Source: Deltaproteobacteria bacterium
Lineage (GTDB): Bacteria; Desulfobacterota; Desulfuromonadia; Desulfuromonadales; BM103
NCBI GenBank assembly: GCA_024636155.1
Contig: JAGXHM010000130.1
Coordinates: forward strand, 1 to 34,890
Reading direction: 5' to 3'
DNA length: 34,890 nt
Positions 18,115 through 32,502 of the stretch are shown here, in pieces. Below the pieces are notes generated by a model, which was not told the origin of the DNA, did no database searches, and saw nothing but the letters and a program-made list of their open reading frames with translations. The position numbers and the translations under genes were made by a program. How positions within the stretch are numbered: position 1 is the stretch's first letter; the number at the start of each line of letters is the position of its first letter.

Positions 18115-18172
18115 TTTAGCGCCTTTACAGCCGTTTTTGCAGGTTTCGGATAGAAGAATTAAGGAGATTGTC

Positions 18173-19609
18173 ATGAGCAAGAGATTGCTGTTGGCTGACG
18201 ACAGTATAACGATTCAAAAGGTTATTCAGATTACCTTTGCGCATGAGGACTATGAGCTGACCATTACAGATAATGGTGATGCAGCCCTTGCTATGGCGCG
18301 GGAAATTAAACCTGATCTGGTTATGACAGATATCTATATGCCGGGTAAAAACGGCTACGAATTAACCGCAGCCATTAAACAGGACCCTGCTCTTCAGCAC
18401 GTGCCAGTATTGCTTCTGGCCGGTTCATTCGAACCCTTTGATGAAGAGAAAGCCAGAAGTTGTAAAGCAGACGCCTGGATTGAAAAACCTTTCGAGTCTC
18501 AAAATTTAATCGATAAGGTTGCCGAATTGCTTAGCACTACCCGGGAAGCTCCTGAAACTGAGGCTCTTGCTGTAGAGCGGGAACCGATTGCAGCTGCGAT
18601 GGTAACTCCTGCTGAGAAGACGATGCTGCCGGATTTTGATGCCCCTGCCAGCGCTGAACCTGAGATGGCTGCAGCTTCAGATGATCCTTTTGGAGATATC
18701 TCTTTTGAAGAAGAGGCTCCTGTCACCGAGCCTGAGACGGTGGCTGCTGCCGATGATTGGAGTGACTTTGCTGTTGCGCCAGCGCTTGAAGAGCCTGTCA
18801 CTGAAGCTGACTTTGCCACTTTTGATGGACCTGTTGAGGATATTGCAGAGGATTTCAGCTTTGACGAAGAGGAACTGCTGGTTTCTGAGGAACTCCCGCC
18901 TATAGAAGAATCCCCGGCTGCAGAAGCTGATCTCGATGTTTTTGATCTGGACGACGATGAGATTATGTCTCTTGACGATGATGATATCCTGGGCGCTGAA
19001 GACCTTGAACCCGTTATGCCGGAACAGACTCTTGCCGCCTGGTCTCGTACCGAGATAGAGGTCGAGGATGTGTTCGCCGAATCTCTTGAAGAGCCTGCTG
19101 CTCTTGCCAGTGACGCTGACTCAGTCGCTTCTGTTGATCCACTTGCCTTTGCAGACGAAACTAGCTCCTTTGACGATGATGAATTCATTGCAGCGGCAAC
19201 CCCGGTTTTCGTAGAACCTTTCGCAGAACCGGTTCCCGACGAGGAGCCTGCGCCTGCGGCTGAAGAGGAAGCTGCGTTTGCGGCTGAAGAGGAAGCTGCG
19301 TTTGCGGCTGAAGAGGAAGCTGCATTTGCGGCTGAAGAGGAAGCTGCGTTTGCGGCTGAAGAGGAAGCTGCGCCTGTTGTTGCACAGCTGGAACCTGCTG
19401 AAGTGGCCGCTGCTGTCGTGGGTGTAGAAGCGCAAGTGTCTGCCATGAGCGAAGCAGATGTTGAGAAGATCATTGAAAAGATCGTTACACAGGTCGTGGA
19501 AAAACTGGCCGGATCAATCCTCGAGCGTGTTGCATGGGATGTTGTTCCTGACCTGGCCGAGAATATGATTCGCGAAGAGATTCGTAAAATTAAGGATGCT
19601 GCAGCCTGA
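18173..19609 (+). CDS. Response regulator with long acidic repeat linker and helical C-terminus
   Basis: This 478-aa protein has an intact receiver domain (1–120: D9/D10, phospho-acceptor D53, S85, K105 in IEKPF). A very acidic, Ala/Glu/Asp/Pro-rich region follows (about 125–410) with no predicted fold. It includes five copies of AAEEEAAF. A short helical C-terminal domain (about 424–478, SEADVEKIIEKIVTQVVEKL … VVPDLAENMIREEIRKI) ends the protein. There is no DNA-binding or enzyme domain, so output is probably through protein contacts. The receiver–linker–helix plan recalls FrzS/AglZ-type polarity proteins, but homology is not claimed. The ATG follows AAGGAG (18161–18166). It is monogenic, ending in a terminator. 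Confidence 0.82.
   Translation: MSKRLLLADDSITIQKVIQITFAHEDYELTITDNGDAALAMAREIKPDLVMTDIYMPGKNGYELTAAIKQDPALQHVPVLLLAGSFEPFDEEKARSCKADAWIEKPFESQNLIDKVAELLSTTREAPETEALAVEREPIAAAMVTPAEKTMLPDFDAPASAEPEMAAASDDPFGDISFEEEAPVTEPETVAAADDWSDFAVAPALEEPVTEADFATFDGPVEDIAEDFSFDEEELLVSEELPPIEESPAAEADLDVFDLDDDEIMSLDDDDILGAEDLEPVMPEQTLAAWSRTEIEVEDVFAESLEEPAALASDADSVASVDPLAFADETSSFDDDEFIAAATPVFVEPFAEPVPDEEPAPAAEEEAAFAAEEEAAFAAEEEAAFAAEEEAAFAAEEEAAPVVAQLEPAEVAAAVVGVEAQVSAMSEADVEKIIEKIVTQVVEKLAGSILERVAWDVVPDLAENMIREEIRKIKDAAA
19256..19375 (+). repeat. Five tandem 24-bp coding repeats (AAEEEAAF)
   Basis: Five consecutive 24-bp units encode AAEEEAAF each, with the last ending in Pro instead of Phe. The copies are almost identical at DNA level (one G/A change in copy 3), pointing to recent expansion by slippage or recombination. 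The unit length keeps the frame, so copy number can vary between strains without breaking the protein. Confidence 0.95.
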
Positions 19610-26833: not shown

Positions 26834-29182
26834 CTAATACCCCAATTCAACTTCCTCCAAAACTTCAGCAAGGTGTTTGCGAATTTGAACACTGCTGTCC
26901 ATGCGGTGAATCTCAGCCCAACACCGACAAGCTACATCCATGGAGACACCCTTAAGGAATGCCTTGGTCCGGGGAATAAAGGGTGCTGGCATGGAAAATT
27001 CACGTAAACCCATACCGATCAGCAACAGGAGGGTCAACGGATCGGTTGCCATCTCGCCGCAAAGACTGACCCCCTTACCCATCGATAGGGCAGTATCGGT
27101 GACTTCGTAGAGTACATGCAGGATGGCGGGGTGCAGTGGGTCATAATATTTGCTGACCAGAGGGTTGTTGCGGTCTGCGGCTAAAAGATATTGAACCAGA
27201 TCATTGGTACCAAGGGCAAAGAAGTCAACCTCGTTGGCCAGTTGCGGTACCATGCGGACAGCCGCAGGGACCTCAATCATGACGCCCAGAGGAACACTGT
27301 CAGCGCAGTCCAGCCCTTCTTCCTTGAGGTTAAGGCGGGCCTCCGCAACCACCTCCTTACAGGCGCGTGTTTCATCCATGCTGGAGATCATTGGAAAGAG
27401 CAGTTTAACCGGGCCATGTAAGCCCGCCATGAGGATTGCTTCGATTTGGGTGCGGAAAATGTCGCGATTGTCGAGCGATACTCTCACTGATCGCCAACCC
27501 ATGAATGGATTGTCTTCTTTGGGAGGGCTGAAATAGGGCAAAGCCTTGTCGCCGCCGATATCCAGGGTGCGAATGGTGACAGGTTGTCCGTCAAATTCTT
27601 TGACCACCCGACTGTAAAGCTCATATTGGTCGTCACGACTGGGGAAGTCACAGCGAGCCATGTAGGGGAACTCGGTGCGATAGAGACCAACACCTTCTGC
27701 GCCAAATCGCTTGGCAACAGTGATGTCACTGATCAAGCCGATGTTGGCTCGCAATGTGATGCGTACGCCATCAGAGGTCGTGGTCGGTTGGTCGCGATAT
27801 TGATCCAGACGGCATAACTCTCGGGTCTGATCCAGCTGTAGGCGTTGGTACTCGTTTTTGATAATTTCTGACGAGTTGATGTAGATGCACCCGGTCCCGG
27901 CATCCATGATCAGGCTGTCTTCCGGGGCAATGTGTTTGAGTGCACCGCGCACGGCGACGATCGCCGGAATTCCCATCGATTTGGCCATGATGACAGCGTG
28001 AGCGTTTTTTTCTCCGGTCTCAGTAATGATGCCGAGAATCTTTTCGCTGTCCAGGGTGGCCATGTCCGACGGTAAAATCTGTCTGGCAACGAGAATGCCC
28101 GGATGCTTCAGATGCAACGTCTGGCCTGAAGTATCACCGACCAGATTGGCAAGGATGCGCCGCCCGATATCTTCCATGTCCGAGGCGCGCTCTCTGAGGT
28201 AGGGATCCTCCATTTTGCGGAAGACTTCAATGTAGTCGGCTACGGTTTTTTCCAGAGCGTAAGCAGCGCTATGAGCGTTAGATATTTCATCCTGGAGTTT
28301 CTTGATGAAGCTGCGATCTTCAAGAATCATCAAATGTGTATGAAAAATTGCTGCATCGTTCTCATTAAGGCGCTCTGCGACCCGTTTCTCAAGAAAGATC
28401 GTTTGAATACAGGTTTTTTCCAAGGCGCTTTCAAGGTTTTTTAACTCGGTTCCAATGTCGACTTCATCCTCGTGCAGAATGTCGGCAAAGCCTAGGCGCT
28501 CTTCAAGAATAATGGCCGGTCCAATGGCGACGCCAGGATAGGCAACGCTTCCAGTAAGAACGCCCTGTTGAGCGTTTTCATCTGCTATCCCGGAGTCATT
28601 GAGGGTTTTTTGCGCCTGTGCAAGAGCCTGGTTGACGCGTTGTCCTTCTTCCTGATGCAGACGAATAGAATCGAGCAGCCGAGCGTTGATGACAATTGAT
28701 GTGACCTGGAAAGCAATTGTCGATAAAGCGCTTATCTCGTCTTTGCTGAACTGCCTGGGATCTTTAGTCTGCAGAACGATGACGCCGAGATGGTTGTTCC
28801 GATCAGAAAAAAGAGGGATGCCCAGGAAAGAATGAAAACGCTCCTCGCCAGTCTCCTTGAAATAGCGGTAACCAGGGTGCTCTTGGGGTTCTTCGATGGC
28901 AATGGCGTGACGCTTCTGGGCTGCCATGCCGGTCAGACCTTCGCCGATGCGCAAGGTTACTTTACCTACTGCTTTGCGGGAGAGTCCCTTGGAGGCTTGC
29001 AGGCGTAAAGTTTCGTTGTCGGGATCAAGGAGGTAGATTGAACAGACATCCGTATGCATACGGCGTGCGACAAGAGTCACAATGTTGCGCAAAGTCTCGT
29101 CGAGATCATGTGACTTGAGAATCAGTGCACTGATGTCTTCAAGAGTGGTAACGCCTATTTTTGCGCTTGGCTTACGTGGCAT
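26834..29182 (-). CDS. ptsP: PEP–protein phosphotransferase EI-Ntr (PtsP)
   Basis: This 782-aa enzyme starts the nitrogen-type PTS: it takes phosphate from PEP and passes it to an HPr-like protein (NPr). An N-terminal GAF domain (about 15–170) is followed by a linker and the EI N-domain. The phospho-histidine domain has H395 in NAHAVIMAKSMGIPAIV. The PEP-binding barrel shows GLYRTEFPYM, DIGGDKALPYF, GVMIEVPAAV, FFALGTNDLVQY and SLCGEMA. The swivel motif reads TGEKNAH instead of the common GGxTSH, but the His is present. No NPr or EIIA-Ntr gene is in the window. No good ribosome site is seen. A terminator lies about 100 nt upstream, so its own promoter must be close, or the terminator acts as an attenuator. 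Confidence 0.93.
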   Translation of the reverse strand: MPRKPSAKIGVTTLEDISALILKSHDLDETLRNIVTLVARRMHTDVCSIYLLDPDNETLRLQASKGLSRKAVGKVTLRIGEGLTGMAAQKRHAIAIEEPQEHPGYRYFKETGEERFHSFLGIPLFSDRNNHLGVIVLQTKDPRQFSKDEISALSTIAFQVTSIVINARLLDSIRLHQEEGQRVNQALAQAQKTLNDSGIADENAQQGVLTGSVAYPGVAIGPAIILEERLGFADILHEDEVDIGTELKNLESALEKTCIQTIFLEKRVAERLNENDAAIFHTHLMILEDRSFIKKLQDEISNAHSAAYALEKTVADYIEVFRKMEDPYLRERASDMEDIGRRILANLVGDTSGQTLHLKHPGILVARQILPSDMATLDSEKILGIITETGEKNAHAVIMAKSMGIPAIVAVRGALKHIAPEDSLIMDAGTGCIYINSSEIIKNEYQRLQLDQTRELCRLDQYRDQPTTTSDGVRITLRANIGLISDITVAKRFGAEGVGLYRTEFPYMARCDFPSRDDQYELYSRVVKEFDGQPVTIRTLDIGGDKALPYFSPPKEDNPFMGWRSVRVSLDNRDIFRTQIEAILMAGLHGPVKLLFPMISSMDETRACKEVVAEARLNLKEEGLDCADSVPLGVMIEVPAAVRMVPQLANEVDFFALGTNDLVQYLLAADRNNPLVSKYYDPLHPAILHVLYEVTDTALSMGKGVSLCGEMATDPLTLLLLIGMGLREFSMPAPFIPRTKAFLKGVSMDVACRCWAEIHRMDSSVQIRKHLAEVLEEVELGY

Positions 29183-29280: not shown

Positions 29281-29320
29281 AAAAAAAACGCCGCCCGGGG
29301 GAGAGAGGTCCCTGGCGACG
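29281..29320 (-). terminator. Minus-strand terminator upstream of ptsP
   Basis: On the minus strand CGTCGCC (from 29320 to 29314) pairs with GGCGGCG (29295 to 29289, one G-T pair) and runs into eight T. It would end transcripts coming from the fusion regulator gene before ptsP, or serve as an attenuator in a long ptsP leader. Confidence 0.7.
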
Positions 29321-29490
29321 CAAAAAAGGGAACAGGAATCCATAGAGTGGAAAACTGTGTGTCCCTAGACAGTTGTTTAAATATAATAGCAAATAATATG
29401 CCAAGACTGTGAATAGCTCGAGAATGGAGTTAACTGCCTGATCTTGGTAGGGTTACTTCTGTTGGAATGTTTGTACTGTTTTTGGGGAAG

Positions 29491-29508
29491 TGTGCCGTTA
29501 ATGGCACA
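29491..29508. promoter_or_regulatory. 18-bp palindrome TGTGCC-N6-GGCACA, candidate operator
   Basis: TGTGCCGTTAATGGCACA has perfect 6-bp arms around a 6-nt centre. It shares arm sequence and spacing with the palindrome at 29556–29573 and partly with that at 31936–31953. No T-run follows. Confidence 0.45.
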
Positions 29509-29555: not shown

Positions 29556-29573
29556 TGTGCCACTATTGTCACA
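29556..29573. promoter_or_regulatory. 18-bp imperfect palindrome TGTGCC-N6-GTCACA, candidate operator
   Basis: TGTGCCACTATTGTCACA lies 65 bp from the related site at 29491 and overlaps the weak sigma-54-like match on the minus strand. It resembles CRP/FNR-type sites in general form but has a longer centre than a CRP site. Confidence 0.4.
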
Positions 29574-29626: not shown

Positions 29627-31897
29627 TCAGCTTTTGAAACTTGCTCCGTTAAGGCCGCTACGGTTAAGCATCCGATAAAAGGTGCGTCTGGGAATTCCTG
29701 CCACGCGTGCAGCGGCAGAGACATTCCCGTCGGCTTCCCGCAAATAGCGGGTTATGAGATTTTTTTCTACCTGGTTGACATGTTGTTGGCGCTGACTACG
29801 CAAGTTGTCCTGATTTGTTTCATCCGGAGTTTGCAGAACCAACTCAGCAAAAATTACGGGAAGGTTCTCTAACCTGACAACTTCATCGTGAGTCAGTACT
29901 GCGGCTCTCTCGATAATGTTCTGGAGCTCGCGAATATTGCCGGGCCAGTGATATTGACGCATGGCATGAACTGCCCGGTCTTCAATCCCCAACAGTGTCT
30001 TATTGACTCGGGTGCTGGCTTTGGCAATAAATGTCAGAAGCAGTTCGTCCAGAGATTCGAGGCGGTTGCGCAGTGGCGGCATGGTGATGGTGAATACGTT
30101 CAGTCGATAAAAGAGGTCCTCCCGAAACCATCCTTCTGTTACACCTTGCTCAAGATTGCGATTGGTCGCTGCAATCAGGCGTACGTCCACTTTGGCCGAG
30201 GCTGTGCCACCAACAGGTCGAATCTCACCGCTGTCGAGAACGCGCAGGAGTTTGGCTTGCAGCTTGGGGGTGATGTCACCGACTTCATCGAGAAAAATTG
30301 TGCCGCCATCGGCTGCTTCAAAGAGACCACGTTTTTCTGCAATAGCGCCTGTGAAGGAACCTTTTTTGTGCCCAAATAGCTCACTTTCAAGGAGGCTGTC
30401 AGTCAGAGTTGTGCAATTGACTGACACCAGTGGTTTGTCGGAGCGCTGGCTCTGGGCATGGATAGCGCGTGCAGTGAGCTCTTTGCCGGTACCACTTTCG
30501 CCCCGAATCAATACTGTCGTGGGTGTTGGTCCAACTTGATGAATAAGCTTGATAACTTCTCTGGTGCGCTGGTCTTTGCCGATAATCACCGTTTCACCAA
30601 ATTCCTGTTTTAATGCGTGTTGAGCGAGTTCGTATTTCTGGGTGAGCTTGGTGTGGTCTTCTTCAAGGCGTTTCAGTGAGTAAGGAAGGCACATGTTGCC
30701 ATCCGCAAGCTCACGGTACACGGCAACGGCATGCTCTCGGCAAGTTGTATAACCGCAAGCGCCACAATTGAGTTCATCTTTGGTTTCGTATTTATTCGTC
30801 GCTTGAAGAATTTGCCGTAAACGCTCGCTGCTCGGGGTTTTAGGACGTTCGTGTTTATTTGCAAAGGATTTGGTGAAACGCGGTAAGGGTATGTCGGTAA
30901 GGTAGTTTGATTTGGTCCGGTAATACACATTCTCATTCAGGTGCTGTTCGATAATCAGATTGCGTTTGGAGAATGTGGTCAGGCGGTTATTCTTGCCTGG
31001 TCCACCGATGCAGCCACCATTGCAGAAGCGGATATCAACCACTTTTGGAGAAATTCGGCCTGCCGCGAGGTCTTTGATGACCTCCATGGCATTCTCTTCA
31101 CCCTCGGTTTCCACATAATCCTGACTGATGATTTCACTGGCGATATCAAAAGACTTGAAAGGTCCTCCGGAAATTGCAAAAAGGCGACCGCGTTGTGGCT
31201 GCACGCCGTCAAAGGCTGTTTCACCAAGACGATTCAGGTCGAGCTTGCGATCCTTGAACATCTTGCTGAGCTCCTGATAGGAGATGACACAGTCGATGGC
31301 GCCCTCGGTTTGCTCTGCAGTGATCTCGAATTTACCGGCAATGCAGGAGCTGATGTAGATAATCGGGGGGTTGGTCGTGGTACGACTCTTGATGAAACGG
31401 CCGATTGCCACCATCGGCGAGACTAGGCCGATCAGGTTTTTGAGTAACTGCGGGTAGTGTCTTTCGATCAGGTCAACAATCGCCGGGCAATGGGTTGTTA
31501 TGAGAGGGTAGGGCTGGTTTTTTTCGAGGGTGTTACGGTAACTTTCGCGGAGCAGATCGACGCCAGCAGCTCCCTCGTGGACTTCTGCAAAGCCAAGCCG
31601 GCGCAGGCCGGTGACCAGTTGCCCGGAGCGAAGATCATGGAAAAAAGCAGGGTGTGAGCAGCCGAGGATGGCGATCGGCGGATTGTCGCCTGCAAGCAGT
31701 TGACGACAATCTTCAACATGGTCGGCAATGACCTTGGCCTTTTGTGAACAGCTTTTGATGCAATTACCGCATCCAATACAGCGGTTGTTGATGACTTCAG
31801 CGTAATTGCGATGAACGCGAATCGCTTTGACCGGGCAATTGCGGACACACGCATAACACTTGCGACAGTTTTCTTTGACGGTGATAATCTGGCCCAT
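29627..31897 (-). CDS. Fusion regulator: ferredoxin – [FeFe]-hydrogenase-like domain – Fe-S module – sigma-54 AAA+ – Fis HTH
   Basis: This 756-aa protein has no membrane segments. Two 4Fe-4S ferredoxin motifs use C11/C14/C17/C21 and C40/C43/C46/C50. A hydrogenase large-subunit-like domain (about 75–345) keeps the four Cys expected to hold the H-cluster cubane: C137 (TTHCP), C185 (SSC), C292 and C296 (FCNGGC). The proton-transfer Cys position is H136. A further Fe-S module uses C378/C381/C386/C403. A sigma-54 AAA+ domain (about 433–670) has Walker A GESGTGKE 466–473, the loop GSFTGA 513–518 (usually GAFTGA) and Walker B GGTIFLDEVG 531–540. A Fis-type HTH (NVSAAARVAGIPRRTFYRML, 725–744) ends it. 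The start at 31897 follows AGGGGAG; the ATG at 31921 is less likely. It probably senses H2 or redox state and activates sigma-54 promoters. Confidence 0.9.
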   Translation of the reverse strand: MGQIITVKENCRKCYACVRNCPVKAIRVHRNYAEVINNRCIGCGNCIKSCSQKAKVIADHVEDCRQLLAGDNPPIAILGCSHPAFFHDLRSGQLVTGLRRLGFAEVHEGAAGVDLLRESYRNTLEKNQPYPLITTHCPAIVDLIERHYPQLLKNLIGLVSPMVAIGRFIKSRTTTNPPIIYISSCIAGKFEITAEQTEGAIDCVISYQELSKMFKDRKLDLNRLGETAFDGVQPQRGRLFAISGGPFKSFDIASEIISQDYVETEGEENAMEVIKDLAAGRISPKVVDIRFCNGGCIGGPGKNNRLTTFSKRNLIIEQHLNENVYYRTKSNYLTDIPLPRFTKSFANKHERPKTPSSERLRQILQATNKYETKDELNCGACGYTTCREHAVAVYRELADGNMCLPYSLKRLEEDHTKLTQKYELAQHALKQEFGETVIIGKDQRTREVIKLIHQVGPTPTTVLIRGESGTGKELTARAIHAQSQRSDKPLVSVNCTTLTDSLLESELFGHKKGSFTGAIAEKRGLFEAADGGTIFLDEVGDITPKLQAKLLRVLDSGEIRPVGGTASAKVDVRLIAATNRNLEQGVTEGWFREDLFYRLNVFTITMPPLRNRLESLDELLLTFIAKASTRVNKTLLGIEDRAVHAMRQYHWPGNIRELQNIIERAAVLTHDEVVRLENLPVIFAELVLQTPDETNQDNLRSQRQQHVNQVEKNLITRYLREADGNVSAAARVAGIPRRTFYRMLNRSGLNGASFKS

Positions 31898-31935
31898 GAA
31901 ACTCCCCTGACGTTTTGACACTTAGTTTTCTCATT

Positions 31936-31953
31936 TGTGGCACGATTGTGTCA
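31936..31953. promoter_or_regulatory. 18-bp site upstream of the fusion regulator, related to the palindromes at 29491 and 29556
   Basis: TGTGGCACGATTGTGTCA matches the 29556 site at 14 of 18 positions and lies 39 bp before the start codon. It also overlaps one arm of a separate TTGACAC/GTGTCAA inverted repeat (31915–31921 with 31948–31954). Confidence 0.4.
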
Positions 31954-31987
31954 ATGGGAACAAAGATGAACCGGTTGTAGGGTTGTG

Positions 31988-32016: not shown

Positions 32017-32502
32017 TTAACCCCTCATATTGATGAACTGCAGGTCGATACCGAAATCTTTCCCTTTGAGCAGCTGAATGACGTCCTGCAGGTCGTCAAT
32101 TTTCTTGCCAGTCACGCGCACCTGCTCTTCCTGAATCTGGGCCTGAACCTTGAGCTTGCTCTCTTTGATCGCTTTGACGATCTCTTTACCTCGTTCCTTA
32201 TCTATGCCTTGCAAGAGGGTGATGCGCTGGCGCATGGCACCGTGTGAGCCCGCTTCCTTCTTGCCAAACTCAAGACAGCTGGGGGAGACACTGCGCTGGG
32301 CCAGCTTGCCGCGCAGGATGTCAACCACTGCCGTCAGCTTGTAGTCATCGGCACCCAGAATAACGATGCAGTCTTTTTCCAGATCAATTTCGTTGTGCGT
32401 CCCCTTGAAATCGTAGCGTTGATTAACTTCCTTGCGTGCAAGGTTGACCGCATTGTCAACTTCCTGCATGTCAACTTTAAAAACAACATCAAAGCTCGGC
32501 AT
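32017..32502 (-). CDS. yajQ: YajQ-family nucleotide-binding protein
   Basis: This 161-aa soluble protein covers the whole family: [20 protein letters not shown] at the start, [33 protein letters not shown], and the end [15 protein letters not shown]. YajQ proteins have two RNP-like αβ folds; some bind c-di-GMP and act with transcription factors, others were reported to bind RNA or nucleotides. The ligand cannot be told from sequence. AGGAG lies eight nt before the ATG. It follows the peptide-transporter ATPase gene by 57 nt, so it may be the last gene of that transcript. Confidence 0.95.

Follow-up and report, generated by a model that had tools for sequence, protein, structure and literature searches.

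A sigma-54 activator built on a hydrogenase scaffold with an altered diiron pocket, and its predicted small RNA, in Desulfuromonadia

As a single chain in which the scaffold of a sensory [FeFe]-hydrogenase is joined to a sigma-54 activator, the 756-residue regulator described here is encoded on the minus strand at 29627-31897 of a 34,890-nucleotide stretch (the window) of contig JAGXHM010000130.1, from a Deltaproteobacteria bacterium of the order Desulfuromonadales (assembly GCA_024636155.1). We think it probable that the regulator is a one-component sigma-54 enhancer-binding protein (EBP) with a redox sensor that holds [4Fe-4S] clusters only, and that it switches an adjacent gene, either for a small RNA or for a ribbon-helix-helix (RHH) protein. 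We infer a cubane-only H-domain because the maturases HydG and HydF fall below cut-off in the genomes of the family and because residues of the diiron pocket are replaced. A canonical H-cluster that binds H2 or CO appears unlikely on these grounds; an earlier note on this DNA had proposed a sensor of H2, CO or redox state.

The regulator's open reading frame (ORF) spans 29627-31921 on the minus strand, and the ATG at 31897, preceded by AGGGGAG, is the likely start codon, giving 756 residues. The chain begins with two 4Fe-4S ferredoxin motifs (31736-31879; residues 7-54, with Cys 11, 14, 17, 21, 40, 43, 46 and 50, and Fer4-type Pfam matches within residues 6-54), followed by a Fe_hyd_lg_C H-domain that keeps the four cubane Cys (30998-31630; residues 90-300, Pfam 1.3e-45), an FeS domain with the pattern Cx2Cx4Cx16C (30683-30772; residues 376-405, Pfam 9.3e-8), a Sigma54_activat AAA+ core with a GSFTGA loop (30086-30586; residues 438-604, Pfam 5.7e-69) and a Fis-type DNA-binding domain, HTH_8 in Pfam (29669-29773; residues 709-743), all on the minus strand. 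From the N terminus to the AAA+ boundary the layout is that of the sensory group C and D hydrogenases, for which an arrangement with the same C-terminal FeS domain has been described (PMC8163306). The remainder, an AAA+ core with a GAFTGA-type loop followed by a Fis-type helix-turn-helix, is what defines a sigma-54 EBP. An AlphaFold2 model of the sensor part has a pLDDT of 91, and its top matches in the PDB are [FeFe]-hydrogenases (8a6t, TMq 0.70). The domains named in the earlier note, its cysteines C137, C185, C292 and C296, and its TTHCP and SSCIAGK motifs all lie where it had placed them; the Pfam matches support its view of the protein as a one-component activator of sigma-54 transcription built upon a hydrogenase scaffold, and both the profile search and the modelled fold bear out the kinship with the hydrogenase large subunit.

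The regulator is found in 20 of the 22 genomes of the window's family, the window's own included, and the 19 others are 62-89% identical to it; the two family genomes without it are 87% complete. At 1e-25 the family profile has matches in 219 of the 277 genomes of the class, and about 205 of these were taken as having the regulator, an approximate figure in that at most six candidates per genome were scored. Fourteen genomes (G116, G118, G122, G153, G192-G199, G259 and G273, of which seven were read) were excluded because their E-values marked the hits as hydrogenase-type, with scores like those of plain sensory hydrogenases. The fragments in G151 and G185 were counted, unread, as regulator, and G113-G115 and G117 were counted for their likeness to G112. 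Among the 80 matches listed, the named close loci carry the labels Desulfuromonadales, Desulfuromonas, Geobacteraceae or Deltaproteobacteria. A tree was built from 81 of 148 sensor sequences, chosen by a per-group maximum and a length floor; in it the regulators of the class form one clade (support 100/99), outside which lie group-C-like sensors from many phyla and, from Firmicutes, five sensors that are sigma-54-fused. Two of the 60 group-C-like sensors were scanned (L073 and L089), and both are histidine kinases. In G123 the regulator copies are split across two overlapping frames (L193/L208 and L225), and in G124 (L196/L226) they lack about 40 residues of the H-domain, through either decay or assembly error.

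In a profile alignment with solved hydrogenases, for which we take the residue numbers, K358 included, to be those of CpI, C137, C185, C292 and C296 of the regulator align with the four cubane Cys, H136 with the proton-transfer Cys C299, S183 with M353, R290 with M497 and G188 with K358. The contact Lys is lost and not shifted, because the K358 position is occupied by G188 and K189 aligns with the next Lys; the earlier note had written "shifted or lost", and the second of these holds. The contact Lys is among the hydrogen-bonding partners of the [2Fe] unit. These replacements are properties of the whole clade: among its 57 sequences (56 distinct, since L139 duplicates L059 and is still counted), His stands at 136 in all 57, as the earlier note had read it in the window, Lys at 188 in none and Arg at 290 in 56, and the Cys of the ferredoxin motifs (57/57) and the cubane Cys of the H-domain are kept throughout. 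All the predicted cluster Cys are likewise invariant in the 12 aligned family orthologues. The 60 group-C-like and five Firmicutes sigma-54-fused sensors have Lys at 188 in 65 of 65 and Leu at 290 in 64; among 16 plain sensory hydrogenases of the class the corresponding numbers are 14 and 15, and among 10 further sequences they are four and none (L142, L193, L204, L208, L225, L226 and L230 are omitted from these counts as duplicates or fragments). Positions C299, M353 and M497 are named in PMC8163306 and PMC10055695; according to the latter, sensory enzymes retain those residues that form hydrogen bonds with the [2Fe] unit, and an M497L variant of a prototypical enzyme was without a properly integrated one. 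Set against the sensory group C and D hydrogenases, the clade thus has the H-domain with four cubane Cys, the two N-terminal 4Fe-4S motifs and the C-terminal Cx2Cx4Cx16C, and lacks residues that hold the [2Fe] unit, including the contact Lys of MPCxxK.

Another altered H-domain was seen in Bacteroidales, in a second H-domain protein encoded about 4.5-5 kb away from a group-C-like sensory hydrogenase; the six sequences (L089:3361-5283, L093:2752-4620, L097:3312-5174, L101:2-1726, L112:3326-5191 and L133:3266-5182, all on the minus strand) form one clade. By group counts His takes the place of C499, Ala that of K358 and Ser that of C14, and so this is, as judged from its residues, apparently another diiron-less H-domain.

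PF02906 (Fe_hyd_lg_C) matches exactly one protein, the regulator itself, in 20 of the 22 family genomes, and none of the 22 has a match besides the regulator. Of the HydEFG maturation that a sensory [FeFe]-hydrogenase would require of its host, HydG and HydF were searched for, and not one of the 22 genomes of the family has either of them above cut-off. One control genome exceeded the cut-off in each search, for HydG that of T. maritima. Matches below cut-off occur in 21 (HydG) and 22 (HydF) of the 22, with a maximum for HydG of 212 bits against 312, and we take them to be other radical-SAM enzymes and GTPases. The window's own genome is 72% complete, and other family genomes are up to 100% complete. 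In the class, HydG is over cut-off in 29 of 277 genomes and in about 10 of the some 205 that have the regulator, leaving about 195 (again approximate) without it. No hydrogenase gene was seen adjoining the regulator. With no second Fe_hyd_lg_C protein, neither maturase above cut-off in the family and three pocket positions changed across the clade, the sensing of H2 or CO at an H-cluster was given up as the leading view; of the signals that the earlier note had named (H2, CO or redox), redox is the one that we keep.

Downstream of the regulator's stop codon lies a putative sigma-54 -24/-12 promoter, TGGCATATTATTTGC (GG-N10-GC; 29389-29403, minus strand), and such a promoter is recognisable in 37 of the 38 loci of the order, L068 failing the pattern. 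A palindrome, GTGCCA-N4-TGGCAC, stands upstream of it in 37 of 37 order loci at no more than two mismatches and in 28 at no more than one, with two or more sites in 33, as against 68 and 40 of 1020 random windows from the same loci (true sites left in; L139 omitted as a duplicate of L059). The window has two such putative upstream activator palindromes, here given without strand, a distal one at 29557-29572 and a proximal one at 29492-29507, each with one mismatch and lying 65 bp apart. By sequence conservation, the regulator is accompanied in 37 of 38 loci by candidates for the cognate promoter and upstream activator sites expected of a sigma-54 EBP.

The same palindrome recurs in the regulator's own promoter. 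In most family members (read in 18 loci) the order there is TTGACA, GTGCCA-N4-TGGCAC, ACAAT, in which the palindrome would be an operator between a putative -35 and -10. At no more than two mismatches it occurs in 30 of 34, 17 of 18 and 1 of 2 loci when the clade is divided into its three parts, and none of the 91 sensor genes from outside the clade has it (counts omit L139, L142, L193, L196, L204, L208, L225, L226, L230 and rows with less than 120 nt upstream). In the window the putative -35, TTGACA, is at 31949-31954 on the minus strand, and the operator, GTGCCACAAATGAGAA (31928-31943, without strand), is degenerate, with three mismatches, all in its right half. The 22 family genomes contain 30 exact palindromes, against six in a reversed control, and 25 of the 30 belong to the regulator locus. 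Five lie elsewhere (G017:C161:54-69, G017:C181:2409-2424, G013:C32:76142-76157, G020:C15:10779-10794 and G005:C101:2159-2174) and are possibly further members of the regulon, chance occurrences or assembly fragments.

Just beyond the sigma-54 promoter we predict a small RNA of about 97 nt (29281-29377, minus strand), which would fold into a 5' hairpin followed by an intrinsic terminator. The loop region of the terminator contains CCUCUCUCC and is strongly conserved, and the terminator is the best conserved part of the RNA. The earlier note had called the targets of this architecture undescribed, and the RNA now supplies a specific, adjacent candidate. Single folds of five of six sequences lie 3-5 standard deviations below shuffles. 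In an alignment that took 34 of the 38 RNA loci, five of the 10 pairs of the terminator stem have double changes, and the stem has 16 double-changed cells against a shuffled mean of 3.6 (0 of 500 shuffles reached as many; slid controls gave 0-1). A covariance model finds one copy each in 84 of the 277 class genomes, all within the window's order, and 77 of the 84 also have the regulator. Of four order genomes missed by this genome search, the three that were rechecked (G032, G037 and G039) have the RNA at 31-36 bits in their locus stretches, the fourth being G036. No Rfam family exceeded its gathering threshold. The RNAs ar14, suhB/mmgR and ncS54 have anti-Shine-Dalgarno-type loops, and their Rfam models resemble the predicted RNA weakly; membership in any of them was rejected, the 12-17 bits obtained being far below the gathering scores.

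The RNA is retained in seven genomes that lack the regulator (L218-L224, in G093, G094, G132, G133, G023, G046 and G084), and therefore another EBP can presumably drive it. In G023, G093 and G132 all candidates were scored with no match to the regulator, and in G046, G084, G094 and G133 none was found by the class profile search and in the local region. Six of the seven have a recognised sigma-54-like promoter; at the G023 locus none was recognised. The RNA adjoins a gene of the dipeptide-transporter ABC type in L218, L220, L222 and L223. In family f17, both regulators read (L194 = G112 and L195 = G109) have lost the GAFTGA-type loop, their genomes are HydG-positive and the covariance model gives no RNA match; these proteins have perhaps turned into non-sigma-54 regulators. 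The loops of L141 and L171 are slightly altered.

In families f23-f25, which belong to the same class and another order, the output appears to be a protein. Their 15 loci yielded no RNA (one match, in L170, reached 18.5 bits with an E-value of 0.23), and an RHH-like ORF of 59-62 codons follows the regulator in 14 of the 15 by pattern; by HMM it was found in 18 of 18 loci of this second group, about 2.5 kb off in L167, and in none of the locus stretches of the window's order, whole genomes lying outside that search. The ORF is preceded by a TTGG-N10-GC promoter with the palindrome 93-106 bp upstream, in 14 of 14 cases at no more than two mismatches and in nine at no more than one. Three ORFs were scanned with Pfam RHH_1, giving 20.5 (L162, at the cut-off of 20.5), 25.7 (L168) and 16.1 (L159, below it); against DUF6290 and the NCBIfam RelB-type models the ORFs score just or well below cut-off. 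Family f24 probably includes kin of Geobacter. The gene order of EBP, promoter and RHH gene agrees with that reported for G. sulfurreducens, where GSU3364, a gene with a predicted RpoN promoter, is preceded by an EBP gene (PMC2725144). GSU3364 encodes HgtR, a repressor that is induced by H2 and turns down gltA, atpG and nuoA (PMC7894505 and PMC7726332, citing Ueki and Lovley 2010), although HgtR itself is undetected in the data of PMC7894505. On gene order, the RHH gene is thus a likely candidate for HgtR, the repressor of H2 growth in Geobacter. We found no mention of GSU3363 in the open-licence PMC literature.

We propose that the sensor retains the scaffold of a sensory [FeFe]-hydrogenase, most likely with [4Fe-4S] clusters only and no [2Fe] subcluster, and that its signal would be the reducing pressure of the cell, with electrons supplied by ferredoxin-type donors and possibly derived from H2 by way of other hydrogenases. 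The state of the clusters would pass through the Cys4 FeS domain and a helix at residues 409-433 to the AAA+ ring; the active ring, presumably bound to one or two palindromes just 3' of its own gene, would open the sigma-54 promoter and yield the small RNA with its C/U-rich terminator loop. Where relatives have the palindrome in the promoter of the regulator itself, as most do, autorepression would be probable, limiting the supply of the regulator. Elsewhere in the class, in other families, this switch would drive the RHH protein of about 60 residues, perhaps HgtR, and through that connection an indirect link of the regulator to H2 is possible.

Several observations weigh against this proposal. 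The AAA+ loop in the window reads GSFTGA and not GAFTGA, and the full-length AlphaFold2 model, good for the domains and not for their arrangement, is middling (pLDDT 80, pTM 0.54). The roughly ten HydG-positive genomes noted above have the regulator, and the seven genomes with RNA and no regulator, six of them with a promoter, also count against it. At the operators, the window is one of the four among 34 order loci without an own-promoter site at two mismatches or fewer, and its genome is one of five in the family with no exact palindrome. Nor is the number of palindromes in the window above chance (two found at no more than two mismatches, against 1.33 expected), so that the case for the two downstream sites rests on their conservation. 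For the RNA, the single fold of L143 hardly beats its shuffles (z -1.55), and the RNAalifold consensus supports the terminator hairpin alone, the 5' hairpin being predicted per sequence. The complement of its loop, GGGGAGAGAG, has 25 sites in four family genomes, four of which are the RNA gene itself; the 21 others, against 18 in a reversed control, amount to no enrichment, one of them has a start codon close behind, and no recurrence was seen. We therefore claim no target for the RNA.

Iron-sulfur switches that respond to the loss or damage of a cluster are well known, and the rival that comes nearest to our reading makes the regulator a sensor of O2, NO or iron-sulfur status, with loss of or damage to a cubane switching the activator and the RNA serving in stress or iron sparing. 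The one-component layout and the predicted sites for four cubanes, their Cys all invariant and with no sign of a diiron site, fit this idea as well as they fit redox sensing; the possible link to HgtR favours an electron-donor signal instead, and we regard the idea as unlikely on balance. Less probable still is a genuine H2 (or CO) sensor whose [2Fe] subcluster is assembled by an unknown route or supplied in trans. The homology of the scaffold and the conserved cubane Cys would suit it, as would an output that is H2-induced in G. sulfurreducens (PMC7894505), should the RHH target be HgtR. In Moorella (L082) and Thermanaeromonas (L094), moreover, a sigma-54-fused relative of the same domain order, with the Lys kept, lies downstream of a gene for an NADH-dependent group A6 hydrogenase, and direct sensing of H2 is plausible for those two proteins. 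Against such a sensor in the present clade stand HydG and HydF, below cut-off throughout the family, the roughly 195 of 205 regulator genomes without HydG, and a pocket with no contact Lys and with Arg at M497, when sensory enzymes retain the residues that bond the [2Fe] unit (PMC10055695).

Two further rivals, both improbable in our judgement, concern the output. The sigma-54 transcript might be an attenuated leader of the next gene and not a free small RNA. In the window that gene encodes a PEP-protein phosphotransferase of the ptsP kind (26834-29182, minus strand; context, and probably not part of the system) and begins about 100 nt beyond the terminator, and in 18 of 35 compared loci ptsP follows on the same strand at a distance of one to three genes. 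The next frame, however, reads (by eye) as YebC-type in L145 and as ferredoxin-nitroreductase-type in L220, with the RNA conserved in both genomes, and it is the terminator that is best conserved. Alternatively, the palindromes might be bound by another transcription factor, the regulator acting elsewhere, as the seven genomes with RNA and no regulator could suggest; this would sit poorly with the concentration of exact sites at the regulator locus (25 of 30), with their absence from the promoters of the 91 sensor genes outside the clade, and with the same site preceding two unrelated outputs beside the same regulator. A [4Fe-4S]-only redox switch of an adjacent gene thus remains the reading that we prefer.

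Parts of this system are already known, namely sensory hydrogenases of such layout, EBPs with hydrogenase domains and regulatory RNAs driven by sigma-54. TmHydS and TamHydS (groups C and D) share with the regulator the N-terminal two-cluster domain, the four cubane Cys of the H-domain, the C-terminal Cx2Cx4Cx16C and the replacement of C299; the regulator differs in having the sigma-54 AAA+ and helix-turn-helix fused where those proteins have a PAS domain or nothing, in its lost contact Lys and Arg for M497, and in a family whose HydG and HydF matches fall below cut-off. LuxO receives its input through a two-component relay. In the Qrr systems of vibrios, as in our proposal, EBPs drive a small regulatory RNA through sigma-54 (PMC10162802), with different inputs and an unrelated RNA. 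Clostridiales EBPs with Fer4, Fe_hyd_lg_C and FeS domains have been listed (PMC6615313), so that the earlier note went too far in calling the architecture undescribed; these have the same domain order including the AAA+ (as in Moorella L082), but the five Firmicutes sensors keep the pocket Lys and Leu and branch outside the Desulfuromonadia clade. The HgtR system resembles the f23-f25 loci in its EBP gene, predicted RpoN promoter and repressor gene (PMC2725144), whereas in the window's order the output is the predicted RNA. On the sensor of the Desulfuromonadia regulator and on the predicted RNA nothing was found in the open-licence PMC literature; within the scope of these searches, the new elements are a clade poor in maturases and altered in its pocket, the operator of that clade, the predicted RNA family, and the interchange of an RNA and an RHH gene behind one switch.

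Elsewhere in the window, a gene for a YajQ family protein (32017-32502, minus strand) lies upstream of the regulator as context, and a plus-strand gene at 18137-19606 encodes a 490-residue protein whose start resembles a response-regulator receiver and which has no NCBIfam match at 1e-20.

The signals and targets of hydrogenase-like sensors are open questions, and the physiological role of HydS in T. maritima has been called unclear (PMC10055695). The locus described here offers a small, adjacent and genetically accessible read-out for a sensor of the hydrogenase fold (one promoter, and one RNA or small protein), leads to the prediction that signalling by this fold is possible with no H-cluster, and contributes a conserved predicted RNA family absent from Rfam. 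We tentatively suggest, as a possibility more doubtful than the switch itself, that a diiron-less hydrogenase scaffold is a class-wide electron-pressure switch for H2-type growth, the output of which has been swapped between HgtR and an equivalent small RNA; if function is conserved, this exchange of RNA for protein under one activator would be a clear-cut example of regulatory replacement.

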